Origin: Bacillota bacterium
Lineage (GTDB): Bacteria > Bacillota > Bacilli > Bu12
Length of the DNA stretch: 41,467 nt
Assembly: GCA_014896485.1 (NCBI GenBank)
Contig: JADBKH010000016.1
Coordinates: 1-41,467 of the forward strand
Reading direction: 5' to 3'
Both the position numbers and the translations under genes were made by a program. Below the pieces are notes generated by a model, which had not been told where the DNA came from, did no database searches, and worked only from the letters and a program-made list of their open reading frames with translations. Shown in pieces: positions 5,871 to 41,467 of the stretch; the stretch's first letter is position 1; every line of letters starts with the position of its first letter.

Positions 5871-8270
5871 TTAGTGCCGCAGTGTAGCGCCAAAGCGCTC
5901 GTGGAGCACCGTTAAAAGTTGATCGACCCGCTCCTGCAGCTCCTGATCGGTCATCGATCGTTGTGTCGGCTCCACCTGTATTCGAAAGGCGAGCGCTTTT
6001 CTCCCTTCGCCAACCTGTGGACCCATATACACGTCAAAAAGGGTCACCTTCGTCTCTCCAAAATCCGTTCCCACCTGCTGAAGCGCCGTCTGTAATGCCG
6101 CAGCCGGTTGTCGGATATCAACGACGAGATCGAGGTCGCGGACAGCGACAGGAAAACGGCTTAAGGGGTGAAAAACTGGGCGTAAATGGGCTTTTTCTGC
6201 CCAAACCGACAAAGGAAGCTCAAAGAGCATAACCCCTTGTGGAAGCTCGAGCTGCTGCGCTACCTGAGGATGAAGTGCAGCCACCCATCCTGCAGGAATC
6301 CCATCCAAGAGGATCTCGGCAGCTTGTCCTGGGTGGGTACCAGGATGCGGATGCTGCTGTAGATCAACAAGGAGCCCAGCACGTGCAGCCAGCGCCTCGA
6401 CGATCCCTTTGGCATCAAAAAAGTCGAACTGACGTCGGGAACCGTACCAGCTCAACGGTTCGGCAGCTCCCCATAACACTCCGGCGGCAGCCGTTTCTTC
6501 CACGAAAGCACCGCCTTCTCGGCGAAAACGTTGCCCCACTTCGAAGAGCGCGACACGCGGTCGATTCCGATTCACATTGTATCGCAGGGCAGAAAGAAGT
6601 CCCACGACCAAGGTTGTTCGCAGTGTGCGGCGCTCGGCTGTCATTGGCGTGCGTACGTGCACTTGTCCTGTCGGCTCCTCAAAGAGTGACAGTTGTTCGG
6701 GAGATTGAAGGGAATACGTGATCACCTCAGACAGCCCACAGGTTATCAATGTCTCCCGAATCAACCGCTTGAAGTCCGCATCAGGATCCAAACGGCCAAA
6801 AGTTGCACTTGCAGGCAGCGAAGTCGGGATGACCGCGTAGCCGACAATACGAGCCACCTCTTCGATGAGGTCAGCTTCGATGGCGACATCCGCCCGACGT
6901 GTCGGTACCGTCACTTCCCATTGCGAAGCGAGATGGTCTTTTACTGCGAAACCCAACCGTTCCAGCGCCTCTCTCATGGAATCTGTCGACCAATCTGTCC
7001 CCAGCAGCGCGTTGGCACGATCGGGCCGAAAGATGACGCGTACTGGTTCTGCAGTCGCCTTACCGACCACCACGCGGCCGGGCACGATTCGGCCCCCTGC
7101 AACCTCTTGTAACAAAGCGGCAGCGCGATCCAACGCTGGCAGAAGGACATTGGGATCGACGCCCCGTCCAAAGCGCAGCGACGCTTCGGAAAAAAGGCCG
7201 AGTGCTCGCGAAGTCTCACGGACAGACCGAGGTTCAAAACGGGCCGATTCAAGGATAATCTGCTGGGTCTGCGGAACGATTTGACTGTTTGCTCCTCCCA
7301 TGACACCACCGACACCGACGGGTACTTCTCCGTTGGTGATCAGGACAGCACCTTGTGGCAGCTGGCGCAAGGTACCGTCGAGGGTTTGCATCTGCTCCCC
7401 TGCACGGGCCTCTCGGACGACAATGCGGGAGCCGATCGCCGATCGATCAAAGGCGTGCAAAGGTTGTCCAAACTCAAGCATGACATAATTGGTTACATCC
7501 ACCACGGCAGAGATGGGGCGGATTCCAGCTGCCATCAAACGGTGCTGCATCGATAGGGGAGAGGCTTTCCAGCTCACCCCCTCGACACATCGTGCTGCAT
7601 AGGCGGAACAGGACGATGTCTGCAGCTCGATGGATAGCGTCGTTTCCAAAGGAAGTCCTTCTTCCTCTGAGAGCTTGATCTGCGGCACATGCACCTGACG
7701 CCCGAGCAGAGCCGCAACCTCATAGGCAACGCCCAAGATGGAAAGGCAATCGGAACGGTTGTAGGTGAGATCGAGATCGAGCACGGTATCGTTCAACCAA
7801 AGCGCGTCCTGTACCACACGCCCCACAGGCAAGGGTGTCTCAAGAAGCCAAAGCCCATCGGCAATCTCTTTGGGAACGACATTCTCCTCAAAGCCGAGCT
7901 CCTGAGCCGAGCAGATCATCCCTTCTGAACGTACACCGCGCAATACAGAAGGCTCTATCCGACGTCCTCCCGGTAGGCGCGCTCCCGGCAGTGCCACAGG
8001 GTAGAAGGCTCCTGCCCGCGCATTGGGGGCACCTGTGACGATTGTGCGGACAGCATCTCCACAATCAACACGACAGATGTAGAGGTGATCGGCGTTGGGA
8101 TGGGGGATGACCTCGAGTATTTGACCGATCACCACCTGGCTGATCTCTGCATCCAGATGTCGGATCGCTGCCACCTCGATACCGCTCACTGTTAACTGCT
8201 GCGCGACAGATTCGGGTGTTTGATCGGCAAGATCTAAGAAGTCACACAGCCATAGCCAGGGAACAAGCAC
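5871..8270 (-). CDS. pheT: Phenylalanyl-tRNA synthetase beta subunit
   Basis: Large subunit of the alpha2-beta2 PheRS. Domains in order: N-terminal tRNA-binding OB-fold (about 40-150, 'VVIGQILEVIPHPNADHLYICRVD'), B3/B4 editing domain (about 210-380), B5 domain (about 410-475), the catalytic-like core, and a C-terminal FDX-ACB anticodon-binding domain ending the 799-residue chain. The open frame extends 43 codons further upstream, but the extension overlaps pheS; GTG at 8270 gives the family N-terminus 'VLVPWLWLCDFLDL' and has GAGAGGAG eight bases upstream. It sits 43 bp after pheS and is controlled by the T-box in front of that gene. Confidence 0.96.
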   Translation of the reverse strand: MLVPWLWLCDFLDLADQTPESVAQQLTVSGIEVAAIRHLDAEISQVVIGQILEVIPHPNADHLYICRVDCGDAVRTIVTGAPNARAGAFYPVALPGARLPGGRRIEPSVLRGVRSEGMICSAQELGFEENVVPKEIADGLWLLETPLPVGRVVQDALWLNDTVLDLDLTYNRSDCLSILGVAYEVAALLGRQVHVPQIKLSEEEGLPLETTLSIELQTSSCSAYAARCVEGVSWKASPLSMQHRLMAAGIRPISAVVDVTNYVMLEFGQPLHAFDRSAIGSRIVVREARAGEQMQTLDGTLRQLPQGAVLITNGEVPVGVGGVMGGANSQIVPQTQQIILESARFEPRSVRETSRALGLFSEASLRFGRGVDPNVLLPALDRAAALLQEVAGGRIVPGRVVVGKATAEPVRVIFRPDRANALLGTDWSTDSMREALERLGFAVKDHLASQWEVTVPTRRADVAIEADLIEEVARIVGYAVIPTSLPASATFGRLDPDADFKRLIRETLITCGLSEVITYSLQSPEQLSLFEEPTGQVHVRTPMTAERRTLRTTLVVGLLSALRYNVNRNRPRVALFEVGQRFRREGGAFVEETAAAGVLWGAAEPLSWYGSRRQFDFFDAKGIVEALAARAGLLVDLQQHPHPGTHPGQAAEILLDGIPAGWVAALHPQVAQQLELPQGVMLFELPLSVWAEKAHLRPVFHPLSRFPVAVRDLDLVVDIRQPAAALQTALQQVGTDFGETKVTLFDVYMGPQVGEGRKALAFRIQVEPTQRSMTDQELQERVDQLLTVLHERFGATLRH

Positions 8271-9407: not shown

Positions 9408-9600
9408 AAGATGCAAAAAGACCCCGTCGAAAGGGACGGAGTCTCCGCGGTACCACCCTTGTTGGCTGCAAGAAGCGCAGCCCAACTCTTTGCGCGATAA
9501 CGGACGCATCCGGATCATGGAAAATCGCTCCGGTGTGAATTCGCCGAAACAACGGACCGCTTCCACCTCCCGGCCCTCGCTGTCGTCGTTTTTTTTCGGC
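9408..9600 (-). promoter_or_regulatory. T-box leader of pheST
   Basis: Untranslated leader that senses uncharged tRNA-Phe. The diagnostic T-box sequence AAGGGTGGTACCGCGG lies at 9445-9460 on the minus strand and is followed by the terminator hairpin with which it competes. Upstream are a stem III-like hairpin (arms around GTTGGGCTGC and GCAGCCAAC) and the conserved CGTTATC element. In the stem I region a GAATTC at 9537-9542 places UUC, a Phe codon, as candidate specifier. The 5' boundary is approximate and touches the end of the methyltransferase gene. Class assignment follows from the motif; the specifier is inference. Confidence 0.92.
9412..9443 (-). terminator. T-box attenuator terminator
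   Basis: On the minus strand GACTCCGTC and GACGGGGTC form a hairpin over about 9420-9443, followed by CTTTTTGC. It is the regulated terminator: uncharged tRNA-Phe would stabilise the alternative antiterminator that uses the T-box sequence. Confidence 0.88.
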
Positions 9601-38281: not shown

Positions 38282-40771
38282 CTAAAAACGGTGAAAACGT
38301 TGTAATGGCGTAGAAGTAGAACGGTGCCGACGGAGTCGCTCCGCCTCTCGACCGTCCATACGTGCCAATTGGGAAATTTGGCGCAATCGGTCATAAACAC
38401 GAGCATGTAAACTGCCCGGCGTGAATTTTCCATCTGCTTCCTTACTTCCAGCAGGCATACCTGTAAGAACCGTCAAAATCTCGTCGACGTGAGAAACGGC
38501 CCAGATGTGGAAGCGATTGTCTTTTACAGCTTCACACACCCGCCGATCGAGCATGAGGGAGGACAGATTGGTCCCAGGGATCACCACACCTTGCCGTCCC
38601 GTTAGGCCGCGGATCTCGCAAACCCGGAAAAACCCCTCAATCTTCTCATTGACAGCGCCGATGGGTTGCACCTGTCCCAGCTGATTGACCGAGCCGGTCA
38701 CCGCAATGCCCTGATTCAGTCCAATCCCTGCCAAGCTGGAAAGCAGAGCACACAGCTCGGCACATGAGGCACTGTCCCCATCGATCTCGTCATACATCTG
38801 TTCAAAGCAGAGGCTTGCCCCAAAAATCAAGGGAAAATCGTGACCATAGGTCCCGGTCATATATCCTTGCAGAATTCCGACACCCTTGCTATGGATCGGC
38901 CCCGAGAGCTCAATCTCCCGCTCAATGTTGACGATCCCCCGTTCCCCAACATAACTGCGCGCCGTGATGCGGTTGGGACGTCCAAAAGCGTATCCCGCAT
39001 CCTCCAGAATCGAAAGCCCATTGATTTGCCCAACAACTTGCCCATCCACGTCGATCAGGTAACTGCCGTCACGAAACATTTCATCCATACGTGTTTCGAG
39101 GGCATTCTGTCGGTAACGAATCCGTGCCAATGCCTCTTCGACATCTCTATCCGTGATGTGCCGCTCTTCCTCAGTGGTTTGGCGTTGTTGCGCAACAGCG
39201 GAAGCCTCAACGAGCAACTGGCGTGCCAAAAGCAAGCGTGCTGAAAGTTTCCGCTGGTCAGAAGCCCAGCGGGAGAGCTGCTCAATGATCGCTGCAATCG
39301 CATTGTCTTCCACTGGCAGCAGGGTCTCTTTGCGCGCGACCCGGTCGATATAACCAGCGATTTGTGCTTCGTGCCCTGCTGTACGTTCCATCTCCGTTTC
39401 GAAATCGGCTCGAATCCCAAAGGACTTGCGAAAAACCTCGTCGTTGTACCACAGATAGCGATAGAACCACCCTGAACCGATCAGGATCAGCTTAACATCG
39501 ACCGAAAGAGGTTGTGGATGCAGTGCAACGGTCGGCAAAGCGCCGTACTGCTCGCCCAGATTTTCGATAGAGACCCGCCCTGTCTGCAGAAAGCGCCGCA
39601 GGCCCTCCCAAGCGCCGGGGGATGCAAAAAGGGCATCGGCAGGAAGGATCAAAAAGCCCCCTTCTGCCCGTTGCAATGCACCCGCTTCGAGCAGGGTCAA
39701 ATCGGTTTCCATCCTTCCAAAATCTCCGCGGTATGCCTGCCGTCCAAACAAATTATAGAAAGTCGGGTTCTCTTCAAAAAGGACAGGAGCCCCTTCTTCC
39801 GGTTCATGGGTCACAAAAGGGTTGACACGAAAACGGGAGAGCTCTCGCTGCCTTCGCATGCGCTCCCAAGCTTGCCACCAATGCTCATCGTCTTCACCCG
39901 GCACAAAATCTGCACTGTTTTCCACGGCATCTTGCTGGACACGATCGAGGTAGGCCAGCACCGCCGGATGCTGCCCAAAGTGTTCCCGAATTGGAGCAAG
40001 CAGTTCCTGAATCACCTATCCGGCTGCCCGTTGGCGCAGCTCCTCCAACCTTTTTTGCATGGTGCGTTGCAGGTCGCGATAACGCTGGAAAAGATCGCGC
40101 AACTGCTCCCGAAGTTGACGGCCTCGATCTTCCATGATCTCGCGTTCTTCTTGGGAGAGCTGTTCATACGCCTCTTCTTGATACGGCTGACCTGTTGCGT
40201 CGAGCGGGACGGTGGCAATGCCATCTTCACGTCGAATCACTCGAAAGCCGAAAGCTTCTGCCTGCTGTTGGGCTTGCTGCCACAGTTGCTGTTCCTGCTC
40301 CTGAAATGCACTGGCCAGCTGACCGCGCTGCCGCGCAAACGTTTCCTGTTCAAAGGCCTCTTGCAAGCGATTCCCCGCTGCTTCGAGGAAACGCTCCATG
40401 GCCGTAGCGAAATAGCGTCCTTCCCCTGCCGGCAATGGGATGCGTTGTGGTGCCAAAGGTTGATCGAAGTTGTAGACGAACACCTGATCATTGGGGGTTG
40501 GCATCTGCTTTGCCAACGCTTTGCACCGGGCTTCGACATAAGAGCGTCGCCCGGTTCCTTCGATCCCAGCCACATAGATATGGTAGGTAGGTTTACGGAT
40601 TCCAAGTCCAGTCTCCAATGCCTGCACGGCGCGGCTTTGGCCGATGATGAGTGGTATTTCCGCTTCGGATTGTTGGCGCCCCTCTCGAACGGCTGACAGA
40701 TCGGCGGCCCGCCACAATTTCTCTGCCGGTACAAGGAGCGACTCAATCAATTCTGGAGTGTTGTTGGTCAC
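38282..40771 (-). pseudogene. LonC-like protease interrupted by one in-frame UAG
   Basis: An AAA_32/LonC-type protease that would be 829 codons long but for TAG at 40016-40018. The N-terminal 251 residues hold the alpha/beta P-loop-like domain and start of the helical coiled-coil region; the 577 residues after the stop continue in the same frame with the LID region and a Lon protease domain whose Ser-Lys dyad is visible in 'DGDSASCAELCALLSSLAG' and 'NEKIEGFF'. The P-loop is atypical: 'GIEGTGRRSYV' has Arg for the usual Lys, in keeping with ATP-independent LonC proteins. GTG at 40771 follows GGGAGG at five bases. A GTG directly after the TAG has no good ribosome site. Mutation, readthrough or error are possible. 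It lies 26 bp after pyk. Confidence 0.85.
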
Positions 40772-40797
40772 TGCACCCTCCCTTGGCGCCCACAGAC

Positions 40798-41467
40798 TCA
40801 ACGGGCGCGTGCACGACCCTTATAGACAAAGCCTCGAACAGGATCGACCGTCACCTCATCACCGTCAGAAAGAAGCTGCGTGGCCCGGTGAACCCCTACT
40901 ACAACAGGAATCCCGGCACTGATGCCACCGACAACGGCAGGCGAAGACAGACCTCCCTCTTCGGCAATGATCGCACAAGCTCGTTTGGTTAGAGATGCAT
41001 TTTCCTCTGTCAAAGAATCGACAACTAAAACAGCTCCGCTGGGAAAACGCTCGGGGTCTTCCCCTGGCCGCCAGGTAAAGACAGGACCGTGAGCGGCTTT
41101 TTTGCCAACTCCAGTTCCTTGCGCAAGCACTTCACCGGCGATCTGCACTTCCAGCAGATTGGTCGTCCCGGCATGACCGATGGGTACCCCGGCTGTGAGC
41201 ACCACGAGATCGCCAGGGGCGATGTAACCATTTTCCATTGCAGCGTGGAGAGCCATATCAAACATTTCATCGGTGGAATGCGTCTGATGGACCAGCACGG
41301 GAAAAACGCCCCAAACAACCCCCAGTTGACGGAATGTTACCGGCGAGGGTGTCGCCGCGACAATGGGTACTTTGGGGCGATATTTGGCAACCATTCGCGG
41401 CGTATACCCGCTCTCTGTACTGGAAACGATGGCGCTTGCCCCCAGTTGATCGGCAATTTCAGCCACC
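40798..41467 (-). CDS. pyk: Pyruvate kinase, C-terminal part
   Basis: Final step of glycolysis. Only the C-terminal 223 residues are inside the window; the catalytic barrel lies beyond the right edge. Visible are the allosteric C domain ('ASAIVSSTESGYTPRMVAKYRP', in part; 'VVLTAGVPIGHAGTTNLLEVQ') and the extra C-terminal PEP-utilising-like sequence ('PAVVGGISAGIPVVVGVHRATQLLSDGDEVTVDPVRGFVYKG', in part) known from Bacillus and Geobacillus enzymes. Two Cys-free segments are joined by a linker as usual. The LonC-like gene follows 26 bp downstream. Confidence 0.95.
   Translation of the reverse strand, partial: VAEIADQLGASAIVSSTESGYTPRMVAKYRPKVPIVAATPSPVTFRQLGVVWGVFPVLVHQTHSTDEMFDMALHAAMENGYIAPGDLVVLTAGVPIGHAGTTNLLEVQIAGEVLAQGTGVGKKAAHGPVFTWRPGEDPERFPSGAVLVVDSLTEENASLTKRACAIIAEEGGLSSPAVVGGISAGIPVVVGVHRATQLLSDGDEVTVDPVRGFVYKGRARAR

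Follow-up and report, generated by a model that had tools for sequence, protein, structure and literature searches.

The closest described systems to the gene studied here belong to the LonC subfamily, represented by MtaLonC of Meiothermus taiwanensis and the TTC1975 peptidase of Thermus (PDB 4FWD). MtaLonC has no canonical Walker B motif, GYLILDA standing in its place, and a LonC-specific insertion, CX3GLX(G/E), follows the helix of the catalytic lysine (PMC3391209). The window, that is, the whole stretch of 41,467 nucleotides analyzed here, carries on its minus strand a LonC-like protease gene (38282..40771) of 829 codons, including one internal in-frame TAG. When the frame is read through, the domains LonC_helical, AAA_32, LonB_AAA-LID, and Lon_C all exceed the Pfam gathering scores, and the first and last of them are common to the window protein and the LonC subfamily. 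Among solved structures, the LonC protease TTC1975/MtaLonC (4FWD) is the closest to it, with a 264-bit match. The motifs of the catalytic serine (GDSASC) and lysine (NEKIEG) are kept and align with those of the family, and the LonC insertion is present as CEIRGLTG in the read-through protein P0001, where it aligns with CKALGLSG of 4FWD. The Walker A-like motif reads GTGRR in the window copy and GTGK in many relatives from the same phylum, and the Walker B region, GGFLILPA, is missing the acidic pair. Both MtaLonC and the window copy have the Ser-Lys dyad motifs and the CX3GLX(G/E) insertion, and both are without a canonical Walker B. As to the LonC criterion of no ATPase activity, what the sequence of the window copy shows is the degenerate Walker motifs. 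The locus appears to be a second, diverged LonC-like (AAA_32-type) protease gene of this genome.

The gene likely starts with a GTG at 40771, preceded by a strong Shine-Dalgarno sequence, AAGGGAGGG (40776..40784, minus strand), which contains GGGAGG; the anti-Shine-Dalgarno duplex at this start has an energy of −12.0 kcal/mol. The gene ends with a TAG at 38284..38282. The premature TAG at 40018..40016 is codon 252 counted from the GTG, equivalent to position 262 of P0001, and is the only internal stop in the frame 40801..38282 of the minus strand. It falls between the LonC_helical and AAA_32 matches, in a helical region, with GGA before it and GTG (40015..40013) directly after it. The 251 codons of the N-terminal half (40019..40771, minus strand) encode the LonC_helical domain and the beginning of the AAA-like module, whose Walker A is degenerate (GIEGTGRRS). 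The C-terminal half (38285..40015, minus strand) continues for 577 codons with no further stop and encodes the AAA_32 region, the LID, and the Lon protease domain. Both halves show a coding signal in their codon usage. The preliminary description had read the codon as a TAG in an otherwise open frame of 829 codons and had assigned both halves to one protein family, and the sequence and the Pfam matches (LonC_helical upstream; AAA_32, LonB_AAA-LID, and Lon_C downstream) bear out both statements. The continuity that it had proposed across the stop is likewise seen in all 60 aligned homologues, in which the region is ungapped and uninterrupted; the locus is therefore one gene interrupted once and not a chance adjacency.

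Upstream of the LonC-like gene lies the 3' part of a pyruvate kinase gene (40798..41466, minus strand; PK_C and PEP-utilizers domains), which is cut by the contig end and whose own end is 26 bases from the start of lonC. This pairing was sought in the flanks of the relatives examined and was not found. An open frame of 394 codons on the plus strand (39512-40696) is antisense to the LonC-like gene and spans the stop site; it is probably a shadow of codon usage.

Matches to the protein were obtained at E ≤ 1e-150 in 141 of 398 genomes of the phylum and at E ≤ 1e-50 in 29 of 399 genomes of the class (the window genome counted in both). The highest identity to any homologue was about 44%, and a scan of genome contigs for close relatives returned homologues at 34-35% only. 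Among the approximately 60 aligned homologues there is no gap around position 262 and none has a stop there, the stop being seen in the window genome only. The residue at this position is highly variable, and several of the residues are one base away from TAG, for which reason the ancestral codon cannot be fixed. A single point change to a stop, suggested earlier in the form of a C-to-T transition, fits the data, but CAG as the ancestor cannot be established. The phylum and class searches flagged 14 copies in relatives for stops, and all were inspected in sequence. In most of them, either the stop lay ahead of the start or close to the normal terminus, or the local alignment contained none. 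A mid-gene stop was present in one of the 14 (G137; L044/L187), namely a TAG in the LID region that corresponds to query position 558. This LonC-like gene of another class genome (G137:C7, L187:5859) has a single in-frame TAG at a site that differs from that in the window, and no other LonC-like copy was matched in that genome. The aligned relatives are all single-chain, and a split gene was not encountered among them, the window genome being the sole member of its order compared.

The window genome itself has an intact LonC-like (AAA_32) paralogue of 822 codons (G000:C26; C26:24098-26356, L035:3961-6429). It belongs to the same domain family and shares 44% identity with the window copy over positions 50-809, but it has no in-frame stop and is uninterrupted across the stop site. 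Its neighbourhood also differs, with an aldehyde ferredoxin oxidoreductase and a broken cstA. The two copies were placed as sisters with an SH-aLRT support of 98; this pairing is not trusted and the sisterhood is unsure, since the branches are long and each copy moves elsewhere in the tree when the other is omitted. Among the phylum members, the window copy had the longest end branch: it measured 1.52 in the first tree, where the median was 0.2, and 1.26 in the tree without the paralogue, the next longest being 0.68. In addition, of the 113 columns with a conservation of 95% or more, the window copy departs at seven, a larger number than in any other row from the same phylum. The long branch and these departures may reflect an old divergence.

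Other interrupted genes were searched for in 954 kb of stretches (44% of the genome) by a codon-usage scan for same-frame coding pairs, followed by Pfam. At least four other genes have a single Pfam domain spanning one or more in-frame stops, and this count is a lower bound, as the scan requires long halves and ten candidates were taken to Pfam. An ABC solute-binding protein gene (L121:7213-8523, G000:C5) has a TAG at 7426 and a TAA at 7942 within SBP_bac_1, and a GH130 family gene (L175:121-1260, G000:C64) has an in-frame TAG at 595 within its domain. On one contig (G000:C11), a transposon-type AAA ATPase (AAA_22; L126:14131-14955) and a phage-type integrase (Phage_integrase; L126:17721-18416) each contain one in-frame TGA. 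The cstA gene for a carbon starvation protein (L035:795-2934, G000:C26), near the intact LonC-like paralogue, is frameshifted, with profile positions 1-357 and 418-560 in two frames. An ABC permease gene (L120:8745-9743, G000:C4) possibly has an in-frame TAA at 9506 in its N-terminal part; its Pfam match starts 3' of this codon and the interruption is unproven.

Taken together, we consider a nonsense mutation in a redundant LonC-like copy, and with it ordinary gene decay, to be the probable explanation, and we infer that the TAG base is real in the organism. The main rival is an artefact of consensus or strain: the TAG would be a consensus error or the base of a minority strain, and the usual gene of the organism would be intact. 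This is rather unlikely in our judgement, although the lesion is the only one in 829 codons, the motifs are intact, and the assembly is fragmented (65 contigs). The single stops and the frameshift in several other genes could also come from error or strain mixture; against this, decay is frequent in the categories to which several of these genes belong (integrase, transposon ATPase, sugar uptake), the solute-binding protein gene has two stops, and the larger window genes tested show no other evident interruption. The long branch of the window copy, for its part, would fit a relaxed constraint. Far less probable is that a full-length protein is made by readthrough or recoding of UAG, through a suppressor tRNA, pyrrolysine, or a changed code; this is the least likely of the readings, even though the frame past the stop is conserved and open. 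ARAGORN found no tRNA with a CUA anticodon in the stretches holding all 39 tRNA-model matches of the genome, PylS was not found in the genome (the assembly is about 96% complete), and RF1 is present above its cut-off. Because the assembly lacks some expected tRNAs, a CUA tRNA could have been missed, but nothing supports this. TAG is the terminator of the LonC-like gene itself and of 93 (about 21%) of the 447 long non-overlapping ORFs in the 954 kb sample, the others ending with TGA (214) or TAA (140), and the interruptions elsewhere in the genome are also by TAA and TGA. The readthrough product suggested earlier thus found no support, and genome-wide recoding of TAG is rejected on the grounds of normal TAG termination, RF1, the missing CUA tRNA and PylS, and interruptions by all three stops. 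A weak tRNA covariance match of 34.7 bits was noted at G000:C7:8499-8558, which ARAGORN does not call.

The other product proposed earlier, a pair of separately made polypeptides, would be a working split protease in which the upstream chain is translated from GTG 40771, the downstream chain arises when translation restarts at the GTG just past the stop, and the chains reassemble. The candidate start adjoins the stop, which permits termination-reinitiation, and the downstream half carries the AAA_32 region together with the entire protease domain. However, as the preliminary description had stated, this GTG is without a good ribosome site (−3.3 kcal/mol, where random positions have a median of −3.5). 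Among the in-frame starts that follow, ATG 39859 is the strongest with −6.5, which is weaker than the random tenth percentile of −7.7, and a GGAGG upstream of the stop is too far for normal use, being approximately 26 bases away. The aligned relatives are single-chain, the genome has an intact paralogue, and the cut falls inside an ungapped, helical-looking stretch of the AAA-like module, not at a domain border. A working split protease is thus very improbable, and a conserved split is rejected, as it is absent from every relative aligned. Slightly less credible still are two chains of which the protease part, made by stop-start reinitiation without a Shine-Dalgarno sequence, is uncoupled from the N-terminal AAA-like part. 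Nothing indicates an evolved reinitiation. A split protease, if true, would be relevant to the way in which LonC links proteolysis to its AAA-like module.

Under the favoured explanation of a nonsense mutation, the LonC-like copy would have acquired the stop probably recently, as we infer. Translation from GTG 40771 would yield 251 residues and stop short of most of the AAA-like module and of the entire protease domain; the 577 downstream codons would probably not be translated efficiently, so that the copy is most likely non-functional and the locus would presumably yield no protease. The full-length paralogue on another contig would make such a loss tolerable. The interrupted state of the second LonC-like copy hints that this lineage can do without it. 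Since there is no second lesion, the catalytic motifs are kept, and the coding signal is present in both halves, the decay itself gives no proof of lost function. For annotation, the proper entry for the locus is a single interrupted LonC-like gene, rather than two genes or a recoded protein.

Compared with 4FWD, the window protein is about 100 residues longer than the solved chain of 732 residues and is interrupted by a stop. Set beside bacterial nonsense pseudogenes, the locus shows nothing distinctive, the GTG after the stop being there by chance; as in those, a redundant gene carries one premature stop in a genome that has other interrupted genes.
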